Assembly: GCF_013812825.1 (NCBI RefSeq)
Contig: NZ_JACCSU010000060.1
Coordinates: 1-61,651 of the forward strand
Source: Sphingomonas sp.
GTDB taxonomy: Bacteria > Pseudomonadota > Alphaproteobacteria > Sphingomonadales > Sphingomonadaceae
DNA: 61,651 nt
Reading direction: 5' to 3'
Shown piece by piece: positions 18,044 to 58,729 of the stretch. Every line of letters begins with the position of its first letter. Position 1 is the first letter of the stretch. The position numbers were made by a program, and so were the translations under genes. Under the pieces are notes generated by a model. The model did not search any database. It was not told the DNA's origin and was given only the letters and a program-made list of their open reading frames with translations.

Positions 18044-19183
18044 CTAGAGCGCCTTTTCAAAAATCCGGTAGACGTGGTTGACCCGCGCGCCCGGTAGCTC
18101 GGCGATCGATATCATCCCCTGGTTATCCTCGAGAACCCAGCCGAACTCGCCTTGGGCGGCGCCGTAATTGGCGACCGCAGCGCGGCGCGTGGACTCGATC
18201 AGCATGAAGGCGATCTGGGTCGCCAGCCGGCTGTTGTGGAGCTTCGAGGCGACGCCCATCAGCGGCACTCGCACCCGGCTCGTCCTGGGCTTGCGCAGGC
18301 GCCACAGCAGCTTCGCCCAGCCAAACGGAAACAGGTGCCCGTCGAGGTCGCGGATCAGCTCGTTGACGTCGGGAAAAGTGACCATGAAGGCAACCGCTTC
18401 ACCGTCCAGCTCGGCGATCCGCACCAGGTCCTCGAAGACGATCGGCTTCAGTTTCTTGCCGGCATAGGCGATCTCGGCCTCGGTCAGCGGAACGAAGCCC
18501 CAATTGGCCGACCAGGCATCGTTGAGGAGGTTGAGGATGATCCGCGCCTCGCTCGCAAAGCGGCTTTTGTCGACCTTGCGGATGTGAAGGCGCGGGTTCT
18601 TCTCGCCGGCGGCGACCAGCCGGTCGGCGAGCGGATCGGACCAGCCGGTGATGCCGACTTCGTAGGTCAGCAGGTCCTTGGCCTTGGAATAGCCGGCCGC
18701 CTCGATCCACCGGCGATATTCGGGCCGATGATGGCCCATCATCACCGTCGGCGGCTCATCGAAACCCTCGATTTCGAGCCCCGGCTCGTCCCAGATCGAC
18801 AGGCTGACCGGCCCGAGCGCCCGGCTCATTCCCTGCTCGCGGAGCCAGTCCTCGGCGACGGCGATCAGCGCGGCGGCCGCCTGCTCGTCGAGCGCCTCGA
18901 ACATGCCCCACTGGCCGGTGCCGGCGCCCATGTGGACCTGGACGAGATCGTCGACCTGGGCGCTGATCCGGCCGACCGTTCGGCCGTCGCGCTCGGCCAG
19001 CCACAGCTGCGCGCGGGCATGCCCGAACCACGGGTTCTTCTTCGGGTCGATCAGCGCGTGGACTTCGCCCTTGAGCGGCGGCACCCAGGCTGGATCGTCT
19101 TCATAGACCCGCCAGACGAAGTCGACGAAGGCCCGCCGGTCGGCCGCGGAGGCGACCGGCCGAACCTGTACCTCAGCCGGCAT
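18044..19183 (-). CDS. GNAT-fold acyltransferase, candidate bacterial ceramide synthase
   Basis: The protein has 379 residues with no signal peptide. It belongs to a GNAT-related family common in Alphaproteobacteria and often left as hypothetical or called dATP pyrophosphohydrolase. Visible pieces are DPAWVPPLKGEVHALIDPKK, DGRTVGRISAQVDDLVQ, SIWDEPGLEIEGF, VMMGHHRPEY and YSKAKDLLTYEVGI. The GNAT-type ceramide synthase described in Caulobacter N-acylates the long-chain base. Here the gene is last in lptF-lptG-hydroxylase-GNAT, and spt, acp and cerR-like genes lie 8-10 kb away, so that role is a reasonable inference. Another amine or lipid N-acyl transfer cannot be excluded. Confidence 0.7.
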   Translation of the reverse strand: MPAEVQVRPVASAADRRAFVDFVWRVYEDDPAWVPPLKGEVHALIDPKKNPWFGHARAQLWLAERDGRTVGRISAQVDDLVQVHMGAGTGQWGMFEALDEQAAAALIAVAEDWLREQGMSRALGPVSLSIWDEPGLEIEGFDEPPTVMMGHHRPEYRRWIEAAGYSKAKDLLTYEVGITGWSDPLADRLVAAGEKNPRLHIRKVDKSRFASEARIILNLLNDAWSANWGFVPLTEAEIAYAGKKLKPIVFEDLVRIAELDGEAVAFMVTFPDVNELIRDLDGHLFPFGWAKLLWRLRKPRTSRVRVPLMGVASKLHNSRLATQIAFMLIESTRRAAVANYGAAQGEFGWVLEDNQGMISIAELPGARVNHVYRIFEKAL

Positions 19184-19191
19184 GGTTGGTT

Positions 19192-19959
19192 TCAGCCGAC
19201 CCGGTCGCGCTTGCGCGGGTGGCCAGTCGCTACTCCGCCCGAAAGTCGAGCGACCCACGGGTAGCGCTCCGCAACCTCGGGAGTGTAGCCGAGGTTGAAC
19301 ACGTTGGGGCTTTTCTCGGGCCGCTCGCGGCGGTCGTAGAAGGTGCCCAGCACCCGGTCCCAGAAATAATTGGTGATTCCGAAATTGCCGGTCTCATCGT
19401 GGAAATGATGGGCCATGTGCCGCTTCTTCATCTCGGTGACCAGCGCCCACTTGGGCTTGTAGGCGAGATGCTGGATGCAGTGGACGAACTCATAGACGCA
19501 GGTCGTGAGGAGCCCGGCCGCGAACGCCGCCGCGGCGCCGCCGGTGCCGCCGATCGCATAGCCGATCGGAACCGTGACGGCGGCGATCGTCGGAAGCGTC
19601 GTGTGCAGCGCTCCGAACAGAACCTCGAGACGATTGGGGTCCTGGTGGTGATCGAAGTGGATGCGCTTCCAGGTGCGAGCCAGCGCCGGCACCTTGAACA
19701 TCCATGTCGAGTGCAGGACCCAGCGGTGAAGCGCGTACCACACGAGCGGGTAGGCGAGCACGATCGAGCCGGCCGCGGCCAGCGTCTCGAGCGGGGACGC
19801 CGGATACAGGGTCCACACGCCCGCCGACACCGCGGCCAGCGCGATGTAGGCGAGGATCGCCGGATACTGGAAATAGGCGATCCACAGCTCCTTGAGCGTC
19901 ATCCGGTCAAGGTAGTGCGAACGGTTCCAAATACCCTTAGCCATGGTCTCTGCAGTCAC
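19192..19959 (-). CDS. Fatty acid hydroxylase superfamily diiron enzyme (FA2H/Scs7-like)
   Basis: This is a 255-residue membrane protein with about four hydrophobic segments. The eight-histidine diiron pattern of the fatty acid hydroxylase/sterol desaturase superfamily is complete: HRWVLH, HFDHH, HCIQH and HMAHHFHDE followed by FGITNYFWDRVLGT. The order and spacing look more like fatty acid 2-hydroxylase than sterol desaturase. Sphingomonas sphingolipids carry 2-hydroxy-myristate, so 2-hydroxylation of the ceramide acyl chain is a sensible inference. The GTG start at 19959 follows AAGGGAA; an upstream ATG at 20025 is possible. It ends 8 bases before the GNAT start. Confidence 0.8.
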   Translation of the reverse strand: MTAETMAKGIWNRSHYLDRMTLKELWIAYFQYPAILAYIALAAVSAGVWTLYPASPLETLAAAGSIVLAYPLVWYALHRWVLHSTWMFKVPALARTWKRIHFDHHQDPNRLEVLFGALHTTLPTIAAVTVPIGYAIGGTGGAAAAFAAGLLTTCVYEFVHCIQHLAYKPKWALVTEMKKRHMAHHFHDETGNFGITNYFWDRVLGTFYDRRERPEKSPNVFNLGYTPEVAERYPWVARLSGGVATGHPRKRDRVG

Positions 19960-20096
19960 GAAATTCCCTTGAATCGATGCCGTCGCCCCCGGCGGCATTG
20001 CGGATGTGGGACTGTAATAAGGCATCTTTGCGACAGTGGAAGGGTCGGAAGTGGGCTGCTGGGCTCGCGCGATCCCCCCGGATGGAGCTGTGCGCG

Positions 20097-21194
20097 TCAC
20101 TCTTCGCTGCGGATCAGGACCGTTTCGCCGATCAGCAGGAACAGGACGAAGGGCGCCCAGGCGGCGAGCAGGGGCGGGTAGGCGCCGACATTGCCCATCG
20201 CCAGGCTGAAATTGTCGGCGACGAAATAAGCAAAGCCGAGCGCCATTCCGACGGTCGCCCGGAGCAGCACCTGGCCGGACCGGGCGAGGCCGAACGCGGC
20301 GACCGCGGCGAGCAGCGGCATCAGCAGCGTCGACAGCGGACTTGAAATCTTGTGCCACAGGCCGGCGCGCGCTTCCTCCGTGTGGCGGCCGGCGCGCTCC
20401 ATCTGCTCGATCCGCTGCTTGAGGGTGAAGAAATCGAGCTGGTCGGGATCGACCTTCGCCAGCGTCAGCCGCTCCGGCTCGACCCCGGGTAGCGCCGTCA
20501 TTTGGTCGTGGCGGCGCACCAGGTTCATGGTCGCGTCGTAAACCCGCACATTCTCGAGCAGCCACGCGCCGCCCGCCGGCCGCGCGCGCTCCGCATCGAT
20601 CACTCGGCGAAGAGTGCCGCCCTCGCGATCATAGATGGAGACGCCGGTAGCGCGCAGCTGTTGATGCTGGCCGACCACCTGTCGAGCGCGAACCAAATCA
20701 TTGCCGACCAAGACCCAGACATTGGACAACAAGTCGCTGTCCGGCGGAATCGGCCGATAATCATTGTCGTTCCACGCGGTGACGGTCCGCGCCGCCTTGA
20801 CCACCACCGTCTCATTGAAGGCGAAGGCCACCGCCGCGATGCCGAGGCTGGCGACGATCAGCGGGGCGAGGATCTGGTGCGCGGAAATCCCCGCGGCCTT
20901 CATCGCGATGACCTCGCTGTGCTGATTGAGCCCGGCGAAGGCGATCAGAGTCCCCAGCAGCACCGAGAAGGGCAGGAACCGCGCGGTCAGCAGGGGCACC
21001 CGCAGCGCGACATATTGCCACAGCTCGGCGTCGCCATTGCCGGGCACGGCGAGGATCTTGCCCGATTCCCCGAGCAGGTCGAGCGTCATCAGGATCAGCA
21101 CCAGCGCCACCAGAACCGCCAGGCTGCGGGTCAGGAACAGCTTGACCGTGTAAAAGGCGATCCGCCGCGACGGGAAGAAATGCAGGTTGATCAT
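20097..21194 (-). CDS. lptG: LptG/YjgQ-family lipid transport permease
   Basis: The protein has 365 residues with the LptF/LptG layout. Three N-terminal membrane helices come first (LTRSLAVLVALVLILMTLDL; ARFLPFSVLLGTLIAFAGL; LIVASLGIAAVAFAFN). A periplasmic jellyroll domain spans about 110-260, and three C-terminal helices start at ISSPLSTLLMPLLAAVAAF. With LptF and the ATPase LptB it normally extracts lipopolysaccharide from the inner membrane. It starts 13 bases after lptF and is followed by the hydroxylase and GNAT genes on the same strand. In a sphingomonad the cargo may be a sphingolipid instead. Confidence 0.9.
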   Translation of the reverse strand: MINLHFFPSRRIAFYTVKLFLTRSLAVLVALVLILMTLDLLGESGKILAVPGNGDAELWQYVALRVPLLTARFLPFSVLLGTLIAFAGLNQHSEVIAMKAAGISAHQILAPLIVASLGIAAVAFAFNETVVVKAARTVTAWNDNDYRPIPPDSDLLSNVWVLVGNDLVRARQVVGQHQQLRATGVSIYDREGGTLRRVIDAERARPAGGAWLLENVRVYDATMNLVRRHDQMTALPGVEPERLTLAKVDPDQLDFFTLKQRIEQMERAGRHTEEARAGLWHKISSPLSTLLMPLLAAVAAFGLARSGQVLLRATVGMALGFAYFVADNFSLAMGNVGAYPPLLAAWAPFVLFLLIGETVLIRSEE

Positions 21195-21207
21195 GCGGGC
21201 GCTCTGG

Positions 21208-22404
21208 TCATGCCCGCTCCGGTCTCGGCAGGAGCGAGCGCACCGCCCGCCCGACCTTGGCAAACGCGCGCTCGAGCGCGCCGATCGGCTGGCCCCCGGG
21301 CTGGTGGGCGAGCACGTGGTACATCCACACGATCAGCGCCGAGAGCAAGACCAGCGGCACCCACAAGGCGACAACCGGTTCGATCCGCCCCTGGGCGCCG
21401 GCTTGCTCGGCATATTGATTGACCTTGTGATAGGCGACGACAATGACGATGCCGATGAAGATGCCGAGCGACGACGAGCTTCGCTTCGGCGGCACCGCGA
21501 GCGCCAGCGCCAGCAGCGGAAGCATCAGCATCATCAGCACCTCGACAATCCGGAAGTGCAGATTGGCCTGAGCGGCAAGGCGGTCCTCGCCGGTGGCGCC
21601 GCCGCCATAGCCTTCGTGAAACAGTTCGTTGAGCGTCAGTTCGTCGTGGTCATGGCCGCGGTTCCGGAAGCGATCGACCTGGGGCAGGTTGATCGGCAGA
21701 TCGTAGCTTTCGAACGACAGGGTCCGCGGCGCCGCGAATTTTGGCGATTGCTGGATCAGGCGCCCCTCGCGCAGCCGGAACAGGATCGTGTCGGGATCGT
21801 CGGTCGACAGGAAGCGGCCGGTTGCAGCGGTTGCCGCGACTGAGGTGCCCGAGCGGTCGTCGACCTGGACGAAAATGCCCCGCAGGCGCGTGCCGCTGTC
21901 CTCGCTGCCGTCGATCCGCAGCGTCAGCCGCTTGCCGAGCCGGTTGAACTCGCCGACCCTGATCGATGCGCCGAGCGCTCCGGAGCGCAGGTCGAACCGC
22001 AGCCCCTCGTAGCGGTAGCGCGCATAGGGCTCGATGTAGCCGACGATCGCCAGGTTCAGGAGCATCAGCGCGGCCGCGTAGGTGTAGGGCACGCGCAGCA
22101 GCCGGCCGAAGCCGATGCCGATTCCGCGCAGTGCATCGAGTTCCGAGGACAAGGCGAGCTTGCGGAAGGCGAGCAGGATGCCGAGCATCAAGCCGATCGG
22201 GATTCCAAGCGAGAAATATTCCGGCAACAAATTGGCCAGCATCCGCCAGACGACGCTGACCGGCCCGCCCGCGGTGACGACGAAATCGAACAGCCGCAGC
22301 ATCTTGTCGAGCACCAGCAGCATCGCCGCCAGGATCAGTGTGCCCAGCAGAGGCACCGCGATGGAACGCGCGAGGTAGCGGTCGATTAGCGAAATGCGGC
22401 CCAA
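21208..22404 (-). CDS. lptF: LptF/YjgP-family lipid transport permease
   Basis: This is a 398-residue permease partner of LptG. Helix 1 is IAVPLLGTLILAAMLLVLDK, and the coupling segment around LALSSELDALRGIGIG contacts the ATPase in characterised homologues. A periplasmic jellyroll (about 125-280) is followed by three terminal helices (VLMMLMLPLLALALAVPPKR and onward). The frame begins with TTG at 22404. It is the first gene of the lptF-lptG-hydroxylase-GNAT run and is divergent from the DUF2141-kinase-cytidylyltransferase run, with 123 bases between them. Confidence 0.9.
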   Translation of the reverse strand: MGRISLIDRYLARSIAVPLLGTLILAAMLLVLDKMLRLFDFVVTAGGPVSVVWRMLANLLPEYFSLGIPIGLMLGILLAFRKLALSSELDALRGIGIGFGRLLRVPYTYAAALMLLNLAIVGYIEPYARYRYEGLRFDLRSGALGASIRVGEFNRLGKRLTLRIDGSEDSGTRLRGIFVQVDDRSGTSVAATAATGRFLSTDDPDTILFRLREGRLIQQSPKFAAPRTLSFESYDLPINLPQVDRFRNRGHDHDELTLNELFHEGYGGGATGEDRLAAQANLHFRIVEVLMMLMLPLLALALAVPPKRSSSSLGIFIGIVIVVAYHKVNQYAEQAGAQGRIEPVVALWVPLVLLSALIVWMYHVLAHQPGGQPIGALERAFAKVGRAVRSLLPRPERA

Positions 22405-22527
22405 TTTTTAGTCGTCCAAACACCATGATTTGGCCGCAAAGCGCGCCGAGACAGCTACGCGGGCGGCTCTCCCTTCCCGTGAAGGACCGCGCCCGGTGTG
22501 CGTCGAAAACGAACGGTCTGCAATATC

Positions 22528-23019
22528 ATGTCGAATACGCGTCTCCTGCTTGTCGCCCCGCTGCTTGCCGCGATGGCCACGGCCGCGCCGGCGCGCATCG
22601 TCGGTTCCGACGCGCAGGCGTGCCTGACGGGCAAGCCATCGATGCTGGTTCGAGTCAGCGGCCTCAAGAAGCCAAGCGGCACGGTCAAGGTCGCGGTCTA
22701 TGCGGCGCAGGGTTACCTCGCCAAGGGCGGCAAGCTTCGCAAAATCGTGGTGCCGGTGCGCTCGAGCGGTCCGATGGACGTCTGCATCGCGGTTCCGAAG
22801 GCCGGCCAATATGCGGTCGCCGTCCATCACGACCTCAACGGCAACGGCGACAAGGATCCCAATGACGGCGGCGGCTATTCGGGAAATCCGAGCCTGTCGA
22901 TCACCAATCTCAAGCCGCCGTTCGGCAAGACCGCGGTGCGCGTCGGTACGGCCCCCCGCCGGGTGACGGTCCTGCTGCAGTACCGCGAGGGCCTCTCTAT
23001 CCGACCAGTGAACGGGTGA
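22528..23019 (+). CDS. Secreted DUF2141 domain protein
   Basis: The protein has 163 residues. A signal peptide (about residues 1-23, ending TAAPA) precedes a DUF2141 beta-sandwich-like domain with VRVSGLKKPSGTVKVAVY, GQYAVAVHHDLNGNGDKD and GGYSGNPSLSITNLKPPFG. The Asp/Asn-rich DLNGNGDKDPNDGG could bind calcium. The function of the family is unknown. The stop overlaps the start of the lipid kinase (TGATG), so a related role at the cell envelope is suggested by context only. Confidence 0.8.
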   Translation: MSNTRLLLVAPLLAAMATAAPARIVGSDAQACLTGKPSMLVRVSGLKKPSGTVKVAVYAAQGYLAKGGKLRKIVVPVRSSGPMDVCIAVPKAGQYAVAVHHDLNGNGDKDPNDGGGYSGNPSLSITNLKPPFGKTAVRVGTAPRRVTVLLQYREGLSIRPVNG

Positions 23020-23993
23020 TGACGCGTCCGCGGATCGCACTGCTTTCCAATCCGAAGTCGACCGGGAATCTAGCTCAGCTTCCGCGGATCAGGGCGTTTT
23101 GTGCCGATCACCCCGACATTTTCCACTATGAGGTCGAGAAAGCCCACCAGGTCGGCACCGCGCTGCGGACGATCGCCCGAGTGCGGCCCAAGATGCTGGT
23201 CATCAACGGCGGCGACGGCACCGTCCAGGCGGCTCTGACCGAACTCTACAACGGCGGCCATTTCGGCAATCAGCCGCCGCCGGTCGCCGTCCTGCCCAGC
23301 GGCAAGACCAATCTCATCGCCCTGGATTTGGGAGCGCCCGGCGACCCCATCGCGGCCCTGGAGAAATTGCTCGAGATCGCCCAGGCCGACTTGAGCCTCC
23401 ACATCGTCGCTCGCGAGCTGATCGCTCTGCGCTGCGGCGCGGGCGAGCAACGGCCGGTGATCGGCATGTTCCTGGGCGGCGCCGGGCTCGCCGACACGAT
23501 GCTTTACTGCCGCGAGAAGATCTATCCGCTCGGCCTTCCCAACGGGGTCAGCCACGCGCTCACCGGATTGGCCTTGCTCGCGCGGCTGTTCCTCAGGCTC
23601 AAAGCCAATTTCCTGCCGCCCCGGCCAAGCCCGTTGGCCGTGTCCTGGCGCAACAGCCAGAGCCTGACCGGCCGCTTCTCGCTGCTGGCGGTGACGACGC
23701 TCGACAAGTTGCTGCTGTCCGGCGAGATCAGGGGGCATAATCGCGGCGCGCTCCGGCTGGTCGCGATCGAAGAGCGTCTCGGTTCGGTCGTGGGGGCCTT
23801 CTTCGCGACCTTGTTCGGCAAGCTCGGCCATTCCAAGCTGCGCGGGGTCCACTTCGAGGAAAGCGACGAGATCAGCATCGAGGGGGAAAGCTCCAAGGTG
23901 ATCCTCGACGGCGAAACGTTCCGGGCCGAGATCGGCCGACCGATCCTCCTCAAGCTCGCGCAGCCGCTGTCGTTCGTCCGCATTGCCGCGTAA
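23019..23993 (+). CDS. Diacylglycerol-kinase-family lipid kinase, candidate ceramide kinase
   Basis: The 324-residue protein belongs to the DAGK catalytic family (DgkB, YegS and the sphingosine/ceramide kinases). It has SNPKSTGN at residues 10-17, the nucleotide loop INGGDGTVQAAL (NGGDGT at 63-68) and VAVLPSGKTNLIALDLG. The C-terminal beta-sandwich ends in VILDGETFRAEIGRP, the usual position of a family motif. The substrate is not certain. A family member in Caulobacter phosphorylates ceramide for an anionic sphingolipid, and the neighbouring spt, cerR-like and GNAT genes make ceramide the best guess. ATG at 23019; a GTG at 23016 is possible. Confidence 0.85.
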   Translation: MTRPRIALLSNPKSTGNLAQLPRIRAFCADHPDIFHYEVEKAHQVGTALRTIARVRPKMLVINGGDGTVQAALTELYNGGHFGNQPPPVAVLPSGKTNLIALDLGAPGDPIAALEKLLEIAQADLSLHIVARELIALRCGAGEQRPVIGMFLGGAGLADTMLYCREKIYPLGLPNGVSHALTGLALLARLFLRLKANFLPPRPSPLAVSWRNSQSLTGRFSLLAVTTLDKLLLSGEIRGHNRGALRLVAIEERLGSVVGAFFATLFGKLGHSKLRGVHFEESDEISIEGESSKVILDGETFRAEIGRPILLKLAQPLSFVRIAA

Positions 23994-24003
23994 AGGCCGC
24001 GCC

Positions 24004-24915
24004 GTGGACGAGCTCAAGCAGCTGGTCGCGGAGGAGCTCGCGACTACCGTCGATCCGCGCGTTGCCAAGCTGGCGGCGGCGATTGCCGCCAGGCACGGGG
24101 CCGCCTCGCGGGCGGTGCTGTTCTACGGCTCCTGCCTTCGCGAAAAGCAGCTCGAAGGATTGATGCTCGATTTCTACCTGATCGTTTCCGATTATCGGGC
24201 GGCCTATGACAAGCGCTGGCTGGCGGCAGCCAACCGGCTGGTACCGCCCAACGTCTTCCTGTTCGAAAAGGATGGGCTCGCCGCCAAATATGCCGTGCTC
24301 AGCGAAGCCGATTTTCGGCGCGAATGCAGTTCGCACGCTTTCACCGTTTCAACGGCCGCTCGTTTTGCGCAGCCATCGCGCTTGGTCTGGTTCGCGGACC
24401 AGAGCGCAGCAGAGCGCGCCATCGAGGCGATCACACAGGCTGGCCCAACACTTCTGGATTGGACACTTCCGGTGGCAGTGGGTGGTTCACCCGAAGAAGT
24501 TTGGCAACGTGCATTCCAGCTCACTTTCGGAGCCGAAATTCGCGCTGAGCGGGCTGGCCGCTCTGAGCTCCTGGTCGCCGCTGATCCGCAGCGCTACTAC
24601 CAATTCGGCCTTCGCGCGCTTCAAGCCATCGCTGAAAAGCGGGGCGTTGGACCAAATGGCGAGGTTCCGCTGATGATGCGGCCTGATCGGGCAGAGCGTT
24701 GGTGGCGCAAGATGCAGCGTCGCGGGAAATGGTATTCGGTCCTCCGGCTCGCCAAGGCGAGCGCGACGTTCACCGGCGGGGTCGACTACATCGCCTGGAA
24801 GATCAACCGCCACGCAGGGACGCAAATCCAAATCAAGCCGTGGCAGCGGCGCTGGCCGCTGCTCGCCGCGATCAGCCTTTTGCCGCGACTCCTGAAGTCC
24901 GGGGCCGTTCGCTAG
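24004..24915 (+). CDS. Tam41/Mmp37-like phosphatidate cytidylyltransferase family protein
   Basis: This 303-residue protein resembles the mitochondrial CDP-diacylglycerol synthase Tam41, a nucleotidyltransferase-fold enzyme unrelated to CdsA. Matching pieces are LFYGSCLRE (YGS at 41-43), MLDFYLIVSD (Asp56), PPNVF, AAKYAVLSEADF, the middle LTFGAEIRAERAGR and the C-terminal AKASATFTGGVDYIAWKI. It directly follows a lipid kinase, so kinase product plus CTP giving a CDP-lipid is a plausible pair of steps. The GTG start at 24004 follows AAAGG; a TTG at 23983 is possible. Codons around 24310-24600 use A or T in third position far more than the rest of the gene. Confidence 0.65.
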   Translation: MDELKQLVAEELATTVDPRVAKLAAAIAARHGAASRAVLFYGSCLREKQLEGLMLDFYLIVSDYRAAYDKRWLAAANRLVPPNVFLFEKDGLAAKYAVLSEADFRRECSSHAFTVSTAARFAQPSRLVWFADQSAAERAIEAITQAGPTLLDWTLPVAVGGSPEEVWQRAFQLTFGAEIRAERAGRSELLVAADPQRYYQFGLRALQAIAEKRGVGPNGEVPLMMRPDRAERWWRKMQRRGKWYSVLRLAKASATFTGGVDYIAWKINRHAGTQIQIKPWQRRWPLLAAISLLPRLLKSGAVR

Positions 24916-26857
24916 CCCGCCGTGCGAGGGCCGAGGAGACTGCATTGGCGAGCGCGCCGACGGTGAACGGCTTGCGCAACAATTCGTAGCCGACGAGCTG
25001 GTCGGTCTCGCCCTCGCCGACATAGCCGGTGACGAACAGCACGGCGAAGTCGCGGTGAGTGGCCTTGAGGTAGCGGATCAGCTCGGGACCGGTCATCTCG
25101 GGCATGATCACGTCGCTGATGACCAGGTCGAATTCGTGGCTTTCGAACAGCTTGATCGCCTCGGCGCCGCTTGAACAGGCGACCGGCTGGTAATCCAGAT
25201 CCTCCAGCGCATCGACGGTCGCCGCTCGGACCCGCGGATCGTCCTCGACCAGCAGGATGCTCGCTCCCGGGACGTGCGCCTCGCTTTCCGAGCGCTGCAT
25301 GGCCGGGTGGAGGCGCACCGCGGCGGGCGCCGATTCCGTCCGCGGCAAGTAGATCGAGACCGCCGTCCCCTTGCCGAGCTCGCTTTCGATTCCGACCTCG
25401 CCGCCCGACTGGTGCGCAAAGCCGAAGATCTGGCTGAGCCCGAGGCCGGTGCCCTTGCCGACCGGCTTGGTGGTGAAAAACGGCTCGAACGCGCGCTCGA
25501 GGACTTCGGGGGTCATTCCGCAGCCCGTGTCGGTGACGCTGATGCGAATATATTCGCCGGGCCGGACATCCCCGACTTCGTTGGCCTTCAGGGTGACGTT
25601 CGAAGTGGTGATCCGCATGATGCCGGTGCCGTCCATCGCATCGCGCGCGTTGACCGCGAGGTTGACGATGGCGTTCTCGAGCTGGTGCGGGTCGACGTAG
25701 GTCGGCCAGCTGTCGCGGGCGAGGTCGACCTCGACTTGAATTCGCTCGCCGAGCGTCCGGTCGAGCAAGTCGGACATGCCGGCGACCAGCTCGCTGCTGT
25801 CGACCCGCTCGGGGAGCAGCGGCTCGGAGCGGGCAAAAGACAGCAGCCGCCGGGTCAGGGCGGCGGCCCGTGTCGCGCCTTCCATGGCGTTGATGAGATG
25901 GGTCATGACTTCGCGCTTGGGACCGTTCAAGCGGCGTCGGGCGAGATCGATTCCACCGACCACCACCGCCAGCATATTGTTGAAGTCGTGGGCGATGCCG
26001 CCGGTTAGCTGGCCGACCGCCTCCATTTTCTGGACCTGCCGCAATTGCGCTTCGGCGAGCTGCCGCTCGACCGCTTCGGCGCGCAGCGCTTCGTTGGCGT
26101 CCTGCAACTCCTGAGTGCGCTCGGCGACGGCCTGCTCGAGCGCCTCGGCGCGCGCCGACTCGGACTCGGCCTGCCGGCGCGCGGCTGCGTTCTGTCGAAC
26201 CGCCTGGATCGCCACCAGGCCGAGGAAGATGGCGCCGATGCCGACGATGATTCCCAGCCAACTCAGATAATCCGTCAGCCGGTCGGCCTGGGCTGAGAAG
26301 ATTTCGCTCTGCTCGATTCGCTCTCGCAGCGACTTGCGCTCGGCATCGGCGATTTCGTCGAGCTTCCGGGTGACGCGGGGACCAGTGTCGACACGGCCGG
26401 CCGCGTAATAAAAAGAGGTGCCGCCTTCGCCCTGCTGGGCGGCCGCCGCGCGCGCGGCGGGAAACAGCTCGCCGCTGCGCATCGCGTACAATTGCTCGAG
26501 CTCATTGACGCGCTGCCGCTGCTCGGGGCTGGTGCGCACCAGCCGTTCGAGCTGATTGATCTGGTGCCCGGCGAGGCGCCACTGGCTAGAGAAGATGCTG
26601 CCGCTGGTCTTGATGTCCTCGTCGAGGACAAAGCGGCCGAGCGCGGCCTCGGCGCGCGACATGCTGGAATCGACGCCGCGAACGAGCAGCGCGACATTGT
26701 AGGCGCGGCGCTCGGCCTCGAGCGCCTGCTCGCGGGCGTCGTTGGACAGAGCGACGAGGACCACCATGGCCAGCAGGACCAGGGTCGCAATCAGGCCGCC
26801 GGCTGCCGCACCGCCTCGGCGCCAGTCGAAATGCAGCTCGTCCCCCGCCGGCATCAT
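24872..26857 (-). CDS. Hybrid sensor histidine kinase with CHASE3-like sensor and receiver
   Basis: The protein has 661 residues. A membrane helix (about 17-38), a periplasmic four-helix CHASE3-like domain (about 40-190) and a second helix (about 198-220) precede a coiled coil. The dimerisation domain has the phospho-acceptor His290 in [11 protein letters not shown], and the HATPase domain follows ([28 protein letters not shown]). The C-terminal receiver ([28 protein letters not shown]) has no output domain. It lies 47 bases downstream of spt on the same strand, so it may be co-transcribed. Its stop overlaps the cytidylyltransferase end by 44 bases. Confidence 0.92.
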
Positions 26858-26904
26858 GGCGCTAGTCTAGACCTGTATGCTGCCCCGTGAAAGGCGGCTT
26901 GGGG

Positions 26905-28107
26905 TCAGTTTATGCAGCCTGTCGCACGTCCTGCAGCAGCGAACATGCCGAGAACCTCACCGACCTGCTCGCTGCTGTGCTCCGAGCAGAGCGAGCAGCG
27001 CAGCAGCGTCATGCCCGCGGGCGTGGCCGGAGGCCGTGCAAGATTGACGTACAGACCGCGCTCCAAAAGCGCTTCCCACATTGCCGCCCCGGTCTCGAGG
27101 TCGGGCATCAGGACGGCGATGATCGCCGACTGCGGCTCGTCGGTCCCGAGGCTGAAGCCCAATTGCCGGAGGCCCGAGTGAAGCCGCTTGCTGTTCTCCC
27201 AGAGGTGGGCGCGCTTGTCGGCCGCATCCATCAGCTTGCGGATCGAGGTCGCCGCGGTCGCCACCACGGAAGGGGGCAGCGAGGCGGTGAACACGTACGG
27301 CCGGCACACCAGCCTCAGGATTTCGAACTTGGGATGGTTCGAGACGCAAAAGCCGCCGACCGTCCCGACCGACTTGGAGAAGGTGCCGATGATGAAATCG
27401 ACGTCGTCGATCACGCCCTGGGCTTCGGCGACGCCGCGGCCATTTTCCCCGATGAAGCCCATCGAGTGCGCCTCGTCGACCAGCACCATCGCGCCGTTCT
27501 CCTTGGCGACCCGAACCATCTCGGTCAGCGGGGCGACGTCGCCGAGCATCGAATAGACGCCTTCGAGCACGACCAGCTTGCCGGCGCCTTCGGGCACGCG
27601 CTTCAGGCGCTTCTCCAGCGCCTCGACGTCGTTGTGGTGGAACGGCACGATCTGGGCGTTGCCGAGCGCGCAGCCGTCGTAGATCGACGCATGGCTGTCG
27701 ATGTCGAGGACGATATAGTCGTCCTTCCCGGCCAGGGTCGAAATCACGCCGAGGTTCGCCTGGTAGCCGGTGGAAAACACCATCGCGTGGTCCATCGCGT
27801 AGAAGTCGCGCAGCGCCTGCTCGACCGCCCGATGGCCGGAATAGGTGCCGTTGAGCACCCGGCTTCCGGTGGTCCCCGAGCCAAAGTCGTCGAGCGCCTT
27901 CTTGCCGGCCGCGATCACGTCGGGGTCGAAGGTCATCCCCATGTAATTGTAGGTGCCCAGAAGGATGGTGCGCTTGCCGTTGCAAATCGCGACGGTCGGG
28001 CTTTCGACCCGGTCCATCACCAGGTTGAACGGGTCGGTGAGGCCGGTTTCGAGCAGCGTCTCGCGCTGCTCGATCAGCGCGTCGAACTTCGAGAAGAGAT
28101 CGCTCAC
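26905..28107 (-). CDS. spt: Serine palmitoyltransferase
   Basis: Spt condenses serine with a fatty acyl thioester to 3-oxo-sphinganine, the entry step of sphingolipid synthesis. The 400-residue alpha-oxoamine synthase closely resembles Sphingomonas paucimobilis SPT: GTYNYMGMTFDPDVIAAGK, the stacking His139 in SHASIYDG, Asp211 and His214 in LVDEAHSMGF, and Lys245 in GTFSKSVGTVGGF for pyridoxal phosphate. These numbers are 20 lower than in the studied enzyme. A homologous 2-amino-3-ketobutyrate ligase or ALAS is less likely because of the neighbouring dedicated ACP (4-base overlap) and CerR-like gene. Confidence 0.93.
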   Translation of the reverse strand: MSDLFSKFDALIEQRETLLETGLTDPFNLVMDRVESPTVAICNGKRTILLGTYNYMGMTFDPDVIAAGKKALDDFGSGTTGSRVLNGTYSGHRAVEQALRDFYAMDHAMVFSTGYQANLGVISTLAGKDDYIVLDIDSHASIYDGCALGNAQIVPFHHNDVEALEKRLKRVPEGAGKLVVLEGVYSMLGDVAPLTEMVRVAKENGAMVLVDEAHSMGFIGENGRGVAEAQGVIDDVDFIIGTFSKSVGTVGGFCVSNHPKFEILRLVCRPYVFTASLPPSVVATAATSIRKLMDAADKRAHLWENSKRLHSGLRQLGFSLGTDEPQSAIIAVLMPDLETGAAMWEALLERGLYVNLARPPATPAGMTLLRCSLCSEHSSEQVGEVLGMFAAAGRATGCIN

Positions 28108-28352
28108 CGCTCGCCCTGCAGCTGGCCGACCGCGTCGACGAGCTGGCCGACCGTTTCAATCTCGGCGGCTCGGTTCATGCTGATCAGGATGTCGAACTCG
28201 TCCTCGACCGACGCGACGAAGTCCATCACCGTCAAACTGTCCCATTCGAGATCCTGGGCGAACCGCGTGCTTTCGGTCACCGCGATGCCCTTCTTGTTGA
28301 AGGGCTCGATCAGCTTGGCGATTTTGGCAGCGGTCTCGTCTCGATCGGTCAT
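28104..28352 (-). CDS. Acyl carrier protein dedicated to sphingolipid synthesis
   Basis: The protein has 82 residues and is acidic. The phosphopantetheine attachment site is EWDSLTVMDFVASVEDEFD (Ser39), which follows the ACP DSL pattern. It overlaps the spt start by 4 bases (ATGA). In Caulobacter a comparable ACP next to spt supplies the acyl chain to Spt, and tight coupling here suggests the same. The housekeeping fatty-acid ACP would normally sit with fab genes, so this is probably a specialised copy. Confidence 0.92.
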   Translation of the reverse strand: MTDRDETAAKIAKLIEPFNKKGIAVTESTRFAQDLEWDSLTVMDFVASVEDEFDILISMNRAAEIETVGQLVDAVGQLQGER

Positions 28353-28425
28353 GGGCGGCTCGTAGTGGCGGGCATTCGGTTTCGCAACGCAATGGGGCGC
28401 AAAAACGGCGGTTCGGAGCCAGCCC

Positions 28426-29331
28426 TTAAAGCCAGCCCTGGGCCCGGTACCATTGAGCGGTCGCGGTGAGGCCGTCGGGCGTCGCGATCCGCGGTTGCCA
28501 GAGATCCGCGGGAGCCGCATGCGCGGCATCGACGACCCAGTCGGGATGGCAGAAATAGGCGGCGCGATCGGTGGTCAGCTTGGCCTTGTCGCCGCGCAAC
28601 AGCCGGTCGGCCCTGGCGCCCAGCCGGAGCAGTCCCGAAGGGATCGAAAAGCTAAGACCCCGCCGACCGACCGCCGTGCCGAGCGCCTCGGCAAATTCCT
28701 TGTGGCTCCAGGCGCCCGTCCGGCCGTCGTCGGGCTCGATCGTCACGCCGCTCGGGGCGCCGGTCGCCGCCAGCGCGAGTAGCAGGCGGACGAGATCGTC
28801 GGCGTGGAGCAGCGACAGGCGCCCCTCGGGCGGCAGCAGCACGAACCCGAGCTTCGCCATTTTGAATAGTTCGAGCGTCTCCTTGTCACCAGGCCCATAG
28901 ACGGCCGGAGGCCGGACGATCGCAAACGGCAGTCCGGAGTTGGCGACGAGTTGCTCCGACTTCGCCTTGGATGCGCCGTAGAGCGACAAGTTCGGTTCCC
29001 GCGCCGCGAGCGAGGACACATGGACAAAGCGTTTGACGCCGCTCGCCTTGGCTGCGACGAGCATCGCCTGCGTCCCATCGACGTTGCAGCGGTCGAAATC
29101 GGCGGCCGTGCGTCCACTGATCACTCCGGCGACGTGGATCACCGAGTCCGCTCCCGCCACCAGCTTCGCGAGCGCGACTGGCTCCTCGAGCGAGCCGCTT
29201 ACCCAGTCGACGTTTACGCGCGCCGGCAGGGGGCGTCGGGTGAGCGCGCTCACCTGATGGCCGTCCGCTACCGCGGCGTCGAGCAGACGCGAGCCGACGA
29301 AACCCGTGCCGCCGGTGACCGCCAGCTTCAT
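28426..29331 (-). CDS. NAD-dependent epimerase/dehydratase-family reductase, candidate CerR
   Basis: This is a 301-residue extended short-chain dehydrogenase. The Rossmann loop is TGGTGFVGSRLL (residues 6-17). VIHVAGVISGRT follows, then the catalytic YGASKAK pair and VRPPAVYGPGD. It lies 73 bases upstream of acp-spt. In Caulobacter the gene at this position (cerR) reduces the 3-oxo group during ceramide synthesis, so the same is inferred here. Generic sugar epimerases share the fold, so context carries much of the weight. Confidence 0.8.
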   Translation of the reverse strand: MKLAVTGGTGFVGSRLLDAAVADGHQVSALTRRPLPARVNVDWVSGSLEEPVALAKLVAGADSVIHVAGVISGRTAADFDRCNVDGTQAMLVAAKASGVKRFVHVSSLAAREPNLSLYGASKAKSEQLVANSGLPFAIVRPPAVYGPGDKETLELFKMAKLGFVLLPPEGRLSLLHADDLVRLLLALAATGAPSGVTIEPDDGRTGAWSHKEFAEALGTAVGRRGLSFSIPSGLLRLGARADRLLRGDKAKLTTDRAAYFCHPDWVVDAAHAAPADLWQPRIATPDGLTATAQWYRAQGWL

Positions 29332-39278: not shown

Positions 39279-40190
39279 ATGAGACGGCAGACTCTGATCG
39301 CTTTGGGTGTTGCGCTCCTTTTGGGGCTTTTCGCCGTCTATCTCGGGAACGTATTTCTAAGCCGCACCGAGCAGAAGGCCGCGGCTGTCCCGGACGGCAT
39401 GACCAAGGTCGCGGTCGCCGCGGTACCGCTCGACTACGGGGTCGAGATCACCCCGGACAAGATCCGCTTCGCCGACTATCCGGTCAGCAGCGTTCCGCCG
39501 GGAAGCTTCCGCAGCATCTCTCAGCTGCTGCCGATGGGGAAACGCCGCGTCGCTCTGCGCCCGATGCTGGTGAATGAGCCGATCCTCGCAAACAAGGTTT
39601 CAGGCGAAGGCCAGGGCGCGTCGATCGCCGCCCTGCTGCCCGACGGCAAACGTGCCGCCGCGGTCCGCATCAACGATGTGTCGGGAGTGGCCGGCTTCGT
39701 ACAGCCAAACGACTCCGTCGACGTGCTGGTGACTCGGCAGGCCGGAGGCTCAGATGCGCAAGTGACCGACCTTTTGCTCCAAAACGTCCGCGTCATCGCC
39801 ATCGATCAGGACGCGAAGGGCGCGGATGGCGCTCCGACAGTTGGCAAGACGGCGACGTTGGAAGTCGATCCCCTCGACGCTCAGAAACTCGCGCTCGCGC
39901 AGCAGGTCGGTCAGCTCAGTCTCGTCCTTCGGAAGCCAGGTGATGTGCAGGACAGCACCGTCGCGACGACCGTCAGTCTGAATGATCTACGCTACTCGCT
40001 TTACGGCGGAGCGCGCTACCCGGCGGCGGCCGTGCCATATCGGCCAACCGCGCCGCGCACCACGGTGAGGCGCGTTGGCCCCAGGCCCTCGCCCGTGGTT
40101 CGCGCCGCGCCACAGCCGCGAACCAGCAACGTTCAGATCGTTCGTGGCACCGAAGGCAACAGTTACGAGGTTGGGGATTATGGCTCGTAA
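39279..40190 (+). CDS. cpaB: Flp pilus assembly protein CpaB/RcpC
   Basis: The protein has 303 residues with one N-terminal membrane anchor (IALGVALLLGLFAVYLGNVF). A SAF domain follows (VAAVPLDYGVEITPDKIRF), then the RcpC core (AVRINDVSGVAGFVQPNDSVDVLV and LLLQNVRVIAIDQ). The tail is basic and proline-rich. CpaB is a periplasmic scaffold working with the CpaC secretin. It overlaps cpaC by 11 bases. Confidence 0.94.
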   Translation: MRRQTLIALGVALLLGLFAVYLGNVFLSRTEQKAAAVPDGMTKVAVAAVPLDYGVEITPDKIRFADYPVSSVPPGSFRSISQLLPMGKRRVALRPMLVNEPILANKVSGEGQGASIAALLPDGKRAAAVRINDVSGVAGFVQPNDSVDVLVTRQAGGSDAQVTDLLLQNVRVIAIDQDAKGADGAPTVGKTATLEVDPLDAQKLALAQQVGQLSLVLRKPGDVQDSTVATTVSLNDLRYSLYGGARYPAAAVPYRPTAPRTTVRRVGPRPSPVVRAAPQPRTSNVQIVRGTEGNSYEVGDYGS

Positions 40191-41670
40191 GTTTTTGCGC
40201 GTCGCGCTGGCCGCGGGCGCGGGCCTGACGGCGCTGACAGCGACGGTTCCTGCGGCTGCCCAAAGCGGGATAATCAGCGTCGCCGAGGACGTGCACGCGG
40301 GCGAGCTGGTGGTGCCCCTCAATAAGAGCCAGGTCGTGCGCGTCGACCGGCCTTATGCAAAGGCTTTGGTTGGCAACCCGGAAATCGCCGATATCCTGCC
40401 GCTGACCAACCAATCCCTCTACGTACTCGGCAAGAAAACGGGCACGACCAGCCTGACGCTTTACGACCGCGGCAATATGTTGATCTCGGTCGTCGACGTG
40501 GTCGTCGGGCCGGACGTCCTCACTTTGAAGCGCCAGCTGTCCGAATTGATGCCGACGGATCAGGTTGGCGCGCGAATTTCCAACGACTCCGTTGTGCTGG
40601 AAGGCATTGTATCGAGCGCTCCGGCGGCCGACCGCGCAGTTCAGCTCGCCGAGACCTATGCACCCGGCAAGGTCGTCAATTTGCTTTCAATCGGGTCGGC
40701 GCAACAGGTGATGCTCGAGGTCCGCTTTTCAGAGATTAAGCGTTCGGCGCTCAAGCAGCTTGGTATCGGTGGTTTCCTTACCGGCGCCGGCCGCGCAGCG
40801 ATTGGCGGCGGGGCGGGGCTTGTTGGCGCCGGTCCACCGACCCTCGGCGCAATTGTCGACAGCTTCGGCATTTTGCAACGTAGCTTCGGCTTGGGCGGGC
40901 TCGACATCGATGCGACACTTGAGGCGCTCGAGCGCAAGGGAATGATCACGACGCTCGCCGAGCCGACGCTGGTTGCTCTGTCGGGTGAGACCGCCAGCTT
41001 CCTTGCCGGGGGTGAGTTCCCAGTTCCGGTGATCCAAGGTAGCGGTGGCGGCGATGACGATGATGCAGGTAGCCGCAGCCTGACCGTCGAGTGGAAGCCG
41101 TTCGGTGTCAGCCTTGCTTTCACTCCGACCGTGCTCGCCGATGGCGTCATCAACATGATCGTCGCGCCGGAGGTCAGCTCAATCGACCCGACGGCCTCGA
41201 TCGTCATTAACAATCTGCGGATCCCGGGCCTCCAGACCCGCCGGGCGAAAACCGTCGTCGAGCTGCGCGACGGCGAGAGTTTCGCGATGGCTGGCTTGCT
41301 CCGCCGCGACTTCCAGGACACCGTCCGGCAGTTCCCGATCCTCGGCTCGATCCCGATCATCGGCACCCTGTTCCGCTCGACGAATTTCCAGCGCGAGGAA
41401 ACCGAGCTGGTGATCATCGTCACTCCGCGGCTCGTGCGGCCCGTCCCGGCCGGTACGTTGAAGGCGCCGACCGATCGCGCCGGGCCTCCCGCCGAAGCGG
41501 ACCTTTTCCTGCTGGGCCGCACGGATACCGGCGTCCCGCCGTCTCCAGGTGCGACGGTGGCTCCGCCGCCGCCGCCGGCGGCCCCGGTGATTGTCGTCCC
41601 CCCGCCTGCCGGAGGGTCGGCATCACTCAAGCCGATGGGCTTTGAAAAGGAGTATGGACATGTCCTCTAG
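40180..41670 (+). CDS. cpaC: Flp pilus secretin CpaC/RcpA
   Basis: This 496-residue protein forms the outer membrane secretin ring. A signal peptide ends at VPAAAQ. A BON-like domain (ARISNDSVVLEGIVSSAPAA) and the secretin core follow (VMLEVRFSEIKRSALKQLG; AEPTLVALSGETASFLAGGE; VELRDGESFAMAGLLRRD; ELVIIVTPRLVRPV). The C-terminus is proline-rich (VAPPPPPAAPVIVVPPP). The start at 40180 has GGGGATT just upstream. Its end overlaps the next gene by 11 bases. Confidence 0.96.
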   Translation: MARKFLRVALAAGAGLTALTATVPAAAQSGIISVAEDVHAGELVVPLNKSQVVRVDRPYAKALVGNPEIADILPLTNQSLYVLGKKTGTTSLTLYDRGNMLISVVDVVVGPDVLTLKRQLSELMPTDQVGARISNDSVVLEGIVSSAPAADRAVQLAETYAPGKVVNLLSIGSAQQVMLEVRFSEIKRSALKQLGIGGFLTGAGRAAIGGGAGLVGAGPPTLGAIVDSFGILQRSFGLGGLDIDATLEALERKGMITTLAEPTLVALSGETASFLAGGEFPVPVIQGSGGGDDDDAGSRSLTVEWKPFGVSLAFTPTVLADGVINMIVAPEVSSIDPTASIVINNLRIPGLQTRRAKTVVELRDGESFAMAGLLRRDFQDTVRQFPILGSIPIIGTLFRSTNFQREETELVIIVTPRLVRPVPAGTLKAPTDRAGPPAEADLFLLGRTDTGVPPSPGATVAPPPPPAAPVIVVPPPAGGSASLKPMGFEKEYGHVL

Positions 41671-41941
41671 GCGATTGCTGATCGCGCCGTTGACACTGGT
41701 CCTGCTCGCGGGATGTGACACCGTCTATCCGCAAACCATGTCTCCCGATCCGGGTTTCGGCGAGGCGGTCAAGTACAATGCCGCGGTCCAGACGATTGAT
41801 CCGGATCCGGTCTATGACGCCAACGACTTCCAACCGGGCGATAGCGGTGCCAAGGGCGCGGCGGCCGTCAAGCGCTACCGGACCGACGCGGTGAAGGACG
41901 TGGAGACGATCCAGACTTCAACTGGAACCGGTCCGCAGTGA
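41660..41941 (+). CDS. Small lipoprotein in the tad cluster, at the cpaD position
   Basis: The protein has 93 residues with a lipoprotein signal peptide and lipobox (LTLVLLAGC; Cys20 counted from the 41660 start). The mature part is polar with no recognisable domain (YPQTMSPDPGFGEAVKYNAAV). CpaD, a pilotin-like lipoprotein that helps the secretin, would normally lie here and be longer, so this may be a reduced stand-in. The AAGGAG site at 41646-41651 fits ATG 41660 better than ATG 41654. It overlaps the cpaC end by 11 bases. Confidence 0.75.
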   Translation: MSSRRLLIAPLTLVLLAGCDTVYPQTMSPDPGFGEAVKYNAAVQTIDPDPVYDANDFQPGDSGAKGAAAVKRYRTDAVKDVETIQTSTGTGPQ

Positions 41942-41962
41942 GGGGAGTGAGGGTGCGTATAA

Positions 41963-43567
41963 ATGAAGCGTTTTGCCCACAGTCTCCTTAGGAACTCGGA
42001 AGGCGCGGTTGCGCCCACTATTGCTCTTTCCCTCGTAGGCCTGATCGCCGTCGGCGGCATCGCGTTCGACTATGCGCGCATGGCGTCAATGGACACCGAA
42101 CTCCAGAATGCGGCGGATCAGGCTGCCTTGGCCGCCGCTAGCCAACTCGACGGCCAGGTGGGCGCCTGCTCGCGGGCAGCCGCCGCGGCTCGAAACATGA
42201 TCTCCAACCTGACCTACATGGCCAATGACGGCGCCAGCAACGCCGTCGTCGTAGCCGAAGAGCCTGCCTGCGACGCGGCTGGCAATGTCCGCTTCTTCCA
42301 GAACATCACCAAGACGACTGCAGCGACCAGCGATGAAAACGCCAAATTCGTCGAACTCGACGTCAATCCGCGTACGGCTTTTTATGCCCTGACGCCTGTG
42401 GTCGGCGCTTTCTCTTCGGGAGCGCTGGGTGCGAAGGCGTTTGCCGGACTTGGCGAAGCGATCTGCCGGGTGCCACCGCTGATGTTGTGTAATCCCAACG
42501 AATCAGGCGACCCGGATTTCACCATTGCCAATTACGTCGGCAAGGGCCTCCGACTCGTCGCCAACGATGGCGGCGGCAATTACGGGCCTGGACTTTTTGG
42601 CTTTCTCGAGGTCGGCCAGGGCAACGGCGCGGCCGATCTGGCGAAGGTGCTCGGTCGCCAGGGCGATCCGGGCAACTGCGCGCAGGGCAGCGGAGTCGAG
42701 CCCAACACTGGCAACATGATATCGGTCCGCGATGCCCTGAACACTCGCTTCGACCTGCTTCAGAACGGTCTCAACCAGGCATGCGGGACTAACGGCGACC
42801 TCTGCCCGCCTTCGCTGAACAGCCGCAAGGACCTGGTGCGCCAGGGCAATGGCTGTGGCTACCAGACTGGCGGAAACCCGGGCTGGAAGGTGGCTACAAA
42901 CGCCTATCCGAACCTGTCGTCCAACACGTTGCCGACGCGAGAGCTCAACGATGCGGAAATCCTGAGTGTCGCCCCGATGGGCTACCCGCGTGACATTTGC
43001 CATGCGTTCAGCATAGCCGGCAGTTGCACTGGCGGACGGACCGGGAACGGCAACTGGGACCGGCTCGCTTACTTCCGGAGCCGGTCCGTCGACATCGCTG
43101 GCATCCTCGCCGAGTGGCCCGAGGCTGCGGGTTTCACGCGGGCAGCTTACCCCGCATTTGAAACATGGATGGCCAACACGTTCGGGTCGAGCGCGCCGAC
43201 CCGATACGACGTGTACAAATACGAGATGGCCGATGCCGCGGCGCGCCTCAAGTCTCAAAACAGCGGCGGGATGGTCTCGCACGGACAGCCGGTCTGCAAT
43301 GGACCGGGAATAACTCCGGGCGCCAATCAACCCGACCGCCGGGTCCTCTCGGTCGCCGTCCTCAACTGCACGGCCCAGGCCGTCTCGGCGAGCAGCGCCA
43401 ACGTCCCGGTTACAAAGTGGATCGACATCTTCCTCACCGAGCCTGTCGCGGCGCGGACCTCGCGCACTGAAAACGGCGATATTTATGTCGAGGTCATCGG
43501 CGAAACCGAGAACAGTGGCAACACGTTCCAGGTGGTCAAGAAGGCCGTTCCGTACCTGATCGAATGA
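41963..43567 (+). CDS. TadG-like pilus assembly protein
   Basis: The protein has 534 residues. The N-terminal Flp/Tad-type helix (GAVAPTIALSLVGLIAVGGIAFDYAR) continues into DTELQNAADQAALAAASQL, typical of TadG. The large extracytoplasmic part has many cysteines (CRVPPLMLCNPNES and CGTNGDLCPP), likely disulfide-bonded. No clear von Willebrand A metal-site (DxSxS) is seen. It is followed by TadE and TadF-like minor pseudopilins with 4-base overlaps. Confidence 0.85.
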   Translation: MKRFAHSLLRNSEGAVAPTIALSLVGLIAVGGIAFDYARMASMDTELQNAADQAALAAASQLDGQVGACSRAAAAARNMISNLTYMANDGASNAVVVAEEPACDAAGNVRFFQNITKTTAATSDENAKFVELDVNPRTAFYALTPVVGAFSSGALGAKAFAGLGEAICRVPPLMLCNPNESGDPDFTIANYVGKGLRLVANDGGGNYGPGLFGFLEVGQGNGAADLAKVLGRQGDPGNCAQGSGVEPNTGNMISVRDALNTRFDLLQNGLNQACGTNGDLCPPSLNSRKDLVRQGNGCGYQTGGNPGWKVATNAYPNLSSNTLPTRELNDAEILSVAPMGYPRDICHAFSIAGSCTGGRTGNGNWDRLAYFRSRSVDIAGILAEWPEAAGFTRAAYPAFETWMANTFGSSAPTRYDVYKYEMADAAARLKSQNSGGMVSHGQPVCNGPGITPGANQPDRRVLSVAVLNCTAQAVSASSANVPVTKWIDIFLTEPVAARTSRTENGDIYVEVIGETENSGNTFQVVKKAVPYLIE

Positions 43568-44684: not shown

Positions 44685-44702
44685 TGAACTGGTAACTGGG
44701 AT

Positions 44703-45905: not shown

Positions 45906-45908
45906 TCG

Positions 45909-48295: not shown

Positions 48296-48299
48296 ACGC

Positions 48300-49277: not shown

Positions 49278-49278
49278 G

Positions 49279-53299: not shown

Positions 53300-53301
53300 G
53301 G

Positions 53302-53997: not shown

Positions 53998-54010
53998 GCC
54001 CGTACTCCGA

Positions 54011-57580: not shown

Positions 57581-57599
57581 CGCGTGCGCAGTGCTCCTT

Positions 57600-58628: not shown

Positions 58629-58680
58629 CGATACGCCCTTTTCAAGTGAGTCCCGGATGGCATTGCCCTAGCCGAGGCAT

Positions 58681-58720
58681 CTGACGGCCGCGTGACAGAG
58701 TTGTTTCAGTTTTGTGACAA
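58681..58720 (-). promoter_or_regulatory. Pho box upstream of pstS (four repeats)
   Basis: On the minus strand four 7-mers occur exactly every 11 bases: TTGTCAC (58714-58720), CTGAAAC (58703-58709), CTGTCAC (58692-58698) and CCGTCAG (58681-58687). This is the PhoB-binding pattern (CTGTCAT-type direct repeats separated by 4 bases). It sits between the phoR stop and pstS. Confidence 0.88.
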
Positions 58721-58729
58721 CCCCCTCGC

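Follow-up and report, generated by a model that had tools for sequence, protein, structure and literature searches.

The window analysed here, 61,651 nucleotides from a Sphingomonas sp. (C59:1-61651, from a 2.45 Mb genome in 100 contigs, 96% complete), carries at 18044-29331 a block of genes which is very probably a sphingolipid island, in a sphingomonad that lacks LpxC, and which would serve to make a sphingolipid, to hydroxylate it and to export it through a dedicated Lpt exporter. The ten genes named for this block in a first-pass annotation were all confirmed by open reading frames and family scans (Table 1). They lie in three groups: cerR-acp-spt on the minus strand, followed by a hybrid histidine kinase, a DUF2141-cerK-cpgC run with overlapping gene ends on the plus strand, and a tightly spaced lptF-lptG-fah-cerS run, again on the minus strand. 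We also consider it likely, with somewhat less confidence, that the LptF/LptG pair of the block represents a second type of Lpt exporter (LptFG-S), that there is one pair per outer-leaflet lipid (L for lipopolysaccharide (LPS), S for sphingolipid), that lineages without LpxC use the Lpt bridge for sphingolipid alone, and that an ancestral FA2H-type hydroxylase was repeatedly displaced in place by a DesA-type protein.

LpxC, the one lipid A gene searched for, was matched in none of 147 genomes of the order, the genome of the window included, and was found in four control genomes, among them E. coli and Caulobacter. The source bacterium appears to be without LPS. Spt is present in 142 of the 147 genomes, LptD in 141 (123 of the 124 good genomes) and LptF/G in 138, with two copies in 122 genomes, three to five in 15, one in a single genome and none in nine. 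As LpxC is absent while LptD and LptF/G are kept, the Lpt route persists in this order without LpxC. Five genomes of family f2 (G009, G022, G033, G037 and G042) are small or incomplete; Spt and LptD are present in them and LptF/G are unmatched.

We also searched 241 genomes of the class for Spt. It was matched in 39, and the 35 of these outside the order were searched for LptF/G and LpxC. Among the 16 genomes with both Spt and LpxC, 15 encode four or five LptF/G genes and one encodes two. The 19 genomes with Spt and without LpxC have two LptF/G genes in 17 cases and none in the remaining two, and in 14 of the 17 the pair is found within about 15 kb of Spt. The association of copy number with LpxC is strong (Fisher p 5e-9 for the 35 genomes, kinship not corrected).

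The LptF and LptG proteins of the window exceed the NCBIfam cut-offs and are encoded in tandem, as in the E. coli LptB2FG exporter of LPS, with which they share gene order and family scores. A tree of joined LptF and LptG sequences was built from 63 rows (46 pairs of the class, 16 pairs of the order, and E. coli). It is divided with a support of 100/100 into an S clade of 46 rows, which comprises every pair found near Spt, whether or not the genome has LpxC, as well as all 16 pairs of the order, and an L side with the other pairs of LpxC-containing genomes and E. coli. One change on this tree is enough to separate the 37 rows labelled "near Spt or order" from the 9 labelled "other". Thirteen LpxC-containing genomes show one S pair, and G209 and G351 show none. 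The residue that corresponds to position 40 of E. coli LptG is basic in 13 of 15 L rows, in 1 of 30 S rows and in none of 120 rows of the order; position 41 is basic in 14 of 15, 1 of 30 and 67 of 120 rows, respectively. According to the accessible text of two earlier reports, K40 touches the 4'-phosphate of LPS and K41 its inner core (PMC6744409), and K40E/K41E has no effect on the growth of E. coli (PMC5548808). Because of that, and because K41 is basic in more than half of the rows of the order, the signature is taken as a hint only. K34 was rejected as a marker, as it is mostly Asp in both clades. The window pair thus differs from E. coli LptB2FG in its separate clade, in its place near Spt in a genome without LpxC and in the loss of the basic residue at K40. 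Taken together, the clade and the copy counts support a putative dedicated sphingolipid exporter.

The block is conserved well beyond the window. Sixty stretches of up to 20 kb, picked around Spt, LptF/G or FA2H-type hydroxylase (FAH) hits in genomes of the order, were queried with the window proteins. With the window included, Spt and LptF occur together in 48 of 61 stretches. These come from seven families and mostly keep the gene order and directions of the window; rearrangements are seen in L041 and in one of the named loci, L088. Besides Spt and LptF the 48 stretches contain the acyl carrier protein (ACP; 48), LptG (47), CerS (45), CerR (41), CerK (38), CpgC (33), DUF2141 (28) and the histidine kinase (17), and the co-occurrence of the block genes exceeds chance. 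Outside the order, 21 Spt loci of the class, chosen where LptF/G were near Spt, hold CpgC in 21, CerK in 19, FAH in 18 and CerS in 17 cases. That the genes form a shared pathway, as proposed in the first-pass annotation, is therefore well supported, since related neighbourhoods keep them together in the order and in the class. In family f1 the block is often split: of the 60 genomes for which places are listed, only 29 have LptF/G no more than 12 kb from Spt. The wider sample points to an ancestral block that was split later. One of the loci (L095) is titled Bacillus sp. 2B10 and is probably mislabelled or contaminated, as its island is of the sphingomonad kind and clusters with Sphingomonas hankookensis CN3.

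The product of fah is of the Scs7/FA2H type. Its only sequence matches in the PDB under E 1 are yeast SCS7 (4zr1 and 4zr0, E 2e-9 and 4e-9), and the only folds found under E 1e-3 for its model (mean predicted local distance difference test (pLDDT) 89) are those of Scs7p. Ten histidines of the stretch aligned with Scs7p, which we take to be metal ligands, are invariant across all 41 homologues aligned (L167 not among them). FAH shares the PF04116 domain, the histidine pattern and the fold with yeast Scs7p and animal FA2H, and the match comprises the hydroxylase domain only. The full-length eukaryotic FA2H/Scs7 proteins have an N-terminal cytochrome b5 domain. None was found in the Pfam scan of FAH, which with 251 residues is too short for it. 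FA2H-like 2-hydroxylases tied to sphingolipids are likewise described for another bacterial group, the myxobacteria (Ring 2009, as given in the accessible text of PMC10002949).

FAH was matched in 32 of the 147 order genomes, strongly in 30; the weak matches of G121 and G125 (E about 1e-14 and 1e-15) were kept apart. In 25 of these 30 genomes the gene has a further gene of the cluster within about 10 kb, in four it is on a contig other than that of Spt, and in G039 it is not near the cluster. Of the 24 order loci in which FAH is present, the window included, 22 encode FAH and CerS on the same strand and within 500 bp of each other. The named FAH loci are the best 80 of 578 confirmed stretches, so that their counts describe close relatives; CerS is found in 74 of them, LptF or LptG in 70 and DesA in none. 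Distances between FAH proteins follow those between LptFG proteins (rho 0.82 for 83 of the 87 loci labelled FAH, with 0 of 500 permutations as high), and for both the nearest neighbour of the window among the 83 loci is Sphingomonas arenae, which argues for a long residence of FAH in the island. From its family, its run with cerS and the DesA-type protein found in the same slot of other genomes, FAH would hydroxylate the N-acyl chain, most likely at C-2. The predominant fatty acids listed for the order include C14:0 2-OH (PMC12210278, accessible text).

FAH is absent from all five sampled genomes of the window's genus. The space between cerS and lptG holds a gene on the opposite strand in these genomes, the position of which agrees with that of a DesA-type PF00487 protein. 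Such a protein was matched in 123 of the 147 order genomes, and the two families are largely complementary: 22 genomes have FAH only, 115 DesA only, eight both and two neither, the latter two (G104 and G106) being 69% and 67% complete. The same is seen within family f1 (5, 58, 1 and 0 of 64 genomes) and outside it (17, 57, 7 and 2 of 83). Fisher p values are 1.7e-17 for all 147 genomes, 8e-7 for f1 and 2e-10 outside f1, kinship not being corrected. On a fast LptFG tree of 120 rows, 105 of them labelled and 15 with neither gene on the stretch left uncounted, at least seven changes between the two states are found; FAH is oversampled on this tree because 80 loci were chosen by FAH. Of the 55 f1 genomes with listed places, 47 have DesA no more than 5 kb from LptF/G, and in 28 of these 47 Spt is on a different contig or at a distance of more than 12 kb. 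According to PMC11324152 (accessible text), a recent report on Caulobacter suggests the DesA-family gene CC_0202 for acyl hydroxylation of sphingolipids; it is likened to the DesA-type protein of the order by family name, not by sequence. From the complementary distribution, the shared slot and this published gene we infer that FAH and the DesA-type protein probably do the same job, i.e. acyl-chain hydroxylation. This suggests that the hydroxylase of the island can be exchanged for an unrelated enzyme in the same position.

Of the ceramide genes, Spt is identified beyond doubt by its sequence; its closest solved structures are serine palmitoyltransferases. The FA_hydroxylase, DUF2141, DAGK_cat and PP-binding domains all score above their Pfam cut-offs, and the CerR-like protein is of the NAD-dependent epimerase type. 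The Caulobacter-type core of Spt with ACP, CerR and CerS is thus present in the window, CerS by position only. Its earlier label as a GNAT protein of the ceramide synthase kind is covered by a sub-threshold GNAT match (E 0.015) with no PDB match under E 1, and we name the protein by its conserved position for that reason. No aasR was found beside cerR, which is directly followed by obgE. The likewise earlier label "Tam41-like" for CpgC found no counterpart in sequence, where neither a Pfam or NCBIfam family nor a convincing PDB entry is matched, and was borne out by the predicted fold. The model has a mean pLDDT of 92 and its five best PDB matches in Foldseek are all Tam41 (top 7ecd, E 5.5e-8, TM-scores 0.54 and 0.59, 13% identity across the fold alignment). 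CpgC therefore shares the fold of the Tam41 CDP-diacylglycerol (CDP-DAG) synthase outside its sequence family, and its substrate may be ceramide-1-phosphate.

A ceramide kinase and a CC_1161-type cytidylyltransferase are both present in the block, likened to the Caulobacter genes by family and fold and not by direct comparison of the proteins. Counterparts of CC_1159, CC_1158, CC_1153 and CC_1152, which belong to the full CPG2 set, were not seen among the 42 of 62 predicted window genes scanned, a scan confined to the window. In L230 of G174, a genome without LpxC outside the order, two CDP-alcohol-transferase-like proteins and one metallophosphoesterase-like protein were recognized by eye in the island (about 2-8 kb, reversed orientation).

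From family knowledge and the published Caulobacter genetics, Spt with its own ACP, CerS and CerR would form dihydroceramide. The Scs7/FA2H-type enzyme would place a hydroxyl group on its N-acyl chain. The lipid kinase may then yield ceramide-1-phosphate, from which the Tam41-fold enzyme would make CDP-ceramide with cytidine triphosphate. LptF and LptG would be the membrane part of the exporter and load the completed sphingolipid onto the Lpt bridge that leads to the outer membrane.

It is conceivable that LptF and LptG are ordinary LPS exporters inherited from an ancestor that made LPS, or that they carry another lipid or a glycan, and stand next to the sphingolipid genes by history. NCBIfam describes the pair as LPS-export equivalogs, the pair is often remote from Spt in f1, and sphingolipid producers may do without it, as two genomes with Spt and without LpxC (G200 and G378) and nine order genomes, five of them in f2, have no LptF/G match. 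We nevertheless regard this as quite unlikely, because LpxC is missing throughout the order while LptF/G and LptD persist, because the Spt-linked pairs form one clade even where a second, L-type pair exists, and because the basic residue at K40 is kept in most L-type rows and nearly lost elsewhere.

For the hydroxylase, a different substrate (the long-chain base, free fatty acids, hopanoids or carotenoids), with the DesA-type protein as a desaturase of another role, is unlikely, yet less so than the LPS explanation. Both families include enzymes acting on other substrates, eight of the 147 genomes hold both proteins, and in four fetched f8 loci without FAH the slot is empty and DesA is found elsewhere. 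These points are set against the best match of FAH in sequence and fold, which is the yeast ceramide fatty acid hydroxylase, against its close linkage to CerS, and against the DesA-type protein that fills the slot in the same genus and adjoins LptF/G in f1. It is highly improbable that 2-hydroxylation is instead carried out by a P450 of the CYP152 type. CYP152 enzymes are not known to have the GHETTA motif, which is present in the only P450 found in the window's genome. PF00067, a model that may miss CYP152, was unmatched in 4 of 16 scanned genomes, the FAH-bearing G135 included. The idea comes from Sphingomonas paucimobilis, of which a P450 fatty acid alpha-hydroxylase was cloned (PMC10002949, accessible text). 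A P450SPalpha gene in the slot beside cerS of genomes without FAH was ruled out at the loci examined, as the slot contains the DesA-type protein.

Besides the genomes without LptF/G and those with both hydroxylases, several further observations weigh against the proposed reading of the island. G209 has LpxC and Spt yet only an L-type pair, G351 has two pairs of which neither is in the S clade (its Spt match is partial), and 15 order genomes carry three to five copies; the tree includes neither the second pair of G335 nor the fragmented one of G167. DesA matches outside f1 are 33-44% identical, so the same function is less sure there. The identity of CerS is based on position, a CDP-alcohol transferase is absent among the scanned window genes, and CpgC is found in only 33 of the 48 contiguous order loci, so that the phospho-branch is optional.

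Much of this gene set has a published parallel. The region CC_1168-CC_1152 of Caulobacter crescentus comprises ceramide genes, the ceramide kinase CC_1160, the CDP-DAG-synthase-like CC_1161 and LptC2, LptF2 and LptG2, and an LPS-like transport route for sphingolipids was proposed for this species (PMC11324152; this and the following citations refer to the accessible text of each source). There CC_1168, CC_1166, CC_1156 and CC_1155, a second LptC, a potential flippase, a second LptF and a second LptG, are suggested to move phosphosphingolipids and are not studied in detail. Of the Caulobacter enzymes, CpgB has been assayed as a ceramide kinase (PMC10331486) and CpgD as a phosphoglycerate cytidylyltransferase (PMC12275187). 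The first-pass annotation had placed the hydroxylase, the cytidylyltransferase and the permeases beyond the Caulobacter core; this holds for the hydroxylase, the DesA-family CC_0202 being unlinked there, and not for the other two, which belong to the Caulobacter region (PMC11324152). What the window adds to the shared ceramide genes, kinase, CC_1161 and LptF/LptG is thus an FA2H-type hydroxylase within the block. Another difference is that its LptF/G pair is the sole one in a genome without LpxC, whereas the Caulobacter pair are second copies. As most of the gene set has been published for Caulobacter, the kind of system is known.

For the Sphingomonadales, PMC11324152 reports scattered sphingolipid genes from S. 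wittichii and Z. mobilis, in contrast to the 48 of 61 stretches with Spt and LptF together found here. The same report calls the passage of sphingolipids to the outer membrane unknown, and according to PMC11087976 no bacterial sphingolipid flippase or transporter was identified. In the literature searched, with most subscription papers outside its scope, the names LptF2, LptG2 and LptC2 occur, among the matches listed, only in PMC11324152, and neither a class-wide hydroxylase with repeated exchange nor a rule for the number of LptF/G pairs with its clade was found. A protein of about 500-540 residues is encoded between FAH or CerS and LptG in L068, L054 and other order loci, with a sub-threshold MatE match in L068. 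Such a protein was matched in 26 of the 60 fetched order loci and not in the window block; it may be the counterpart of CC_1166.

Table 1. Genes of the sphingolipid block, with window positions and the support for each assignment.
Gene product	Position	Strand	Support and remarks
CerS-like acyltransferase, bacterial ceramide synthase candidate	18044..19183	-	379 residues; sub-threshold GNAT match; conserved position near FAH/LptG; last gene of its run
FAH, Scs7/FA2H-type fatty acid hydroxylase	19192..19947 (start codon provisional)	-	PF04116, 72.9 bits
LptG, S clade (putatively sphingolipid-linked)	20097..21203	-	TIGR04408, 293 bits (cut-off 240); tree
LptF, S clade (putatively sphingolipid-linked)	21208..22404	-	TIGR04407, 251 bits (cut-off 230); tree
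DUF2141 protein	22498..23019	+	PF09912, 66.5 bits; N-terminus signal-like by eye; first of run with cerK and cpgC
CerK/CpgB-like lipid kinase, DAGK family	23016..23993	+	PF00781, 54.2 bits; conserved position
CpgC-like cytidylyltransferase, Tam41 fold, CC_1161 type	23983..24915	+	predicted fold; no sequence family
Hybrid histidine kinase	24872..26857	-	HATPase_c and receiver domains; CHASE3 and HisKA below cut-off
Spt, serine palmitoyltransferase	26905..28107	-	SerpalmtaseAlphaP (NF047603), 807 bits (cut-off 670); 2x8u, E 9e-205
Dedicated acyl carrier protein, AcpR-like	28104..28352	-	PF00550, 34 bits; DSL motif
CerR-like NAD(P)-binding reductase	28426..29331	-	PF01370, 87.5 bits

The hybrid histidine kinase inside the block had gone unmentioned in the first-pass annotation and is a possible regulator of the island; the 17 contiguous order loci with such a kinase beside spt all belong to family f1. 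DUF2141 is kept in 30 of the 42 order loci that hold LptF and CerK. Further along the window a Flp/Tad pilus cluster at 39321-51680 (RcpC/CpaB, secretin, TadE/G-like, T2SSE, two T2SSF and TPR proteins) has a somewhat lower G+C content, and at 52592-61053 a phosphate uptake set is encoded (response regulator, PhoU, ABC ATPase, two permeases, binding protein and a Porin_O_P protein).

The block is real, and a richer case of a type of system already known. It looks as if the sphingolipids made by it replace LPS, and the data suggest that its "LPS exporter" genes may really encode a sphingolipid exporter, so that the family name "LPS export permease" may mislead across the whole order. If true, a dedicated sphingolipid exporter would explain why LptD is retained in an order without LpxC. 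The exchange of hydroxylases provides a candidate gene for the 2-hydroxy acyl chains typical of sphingomonads and a clean test by gene exchange. The pattern of one pair per lipid turns the Caulobacter LptF2/LptG2 proposal into a class-wide testable rule, and together with the clade it makes the question of sphingolipid transport directly testable.

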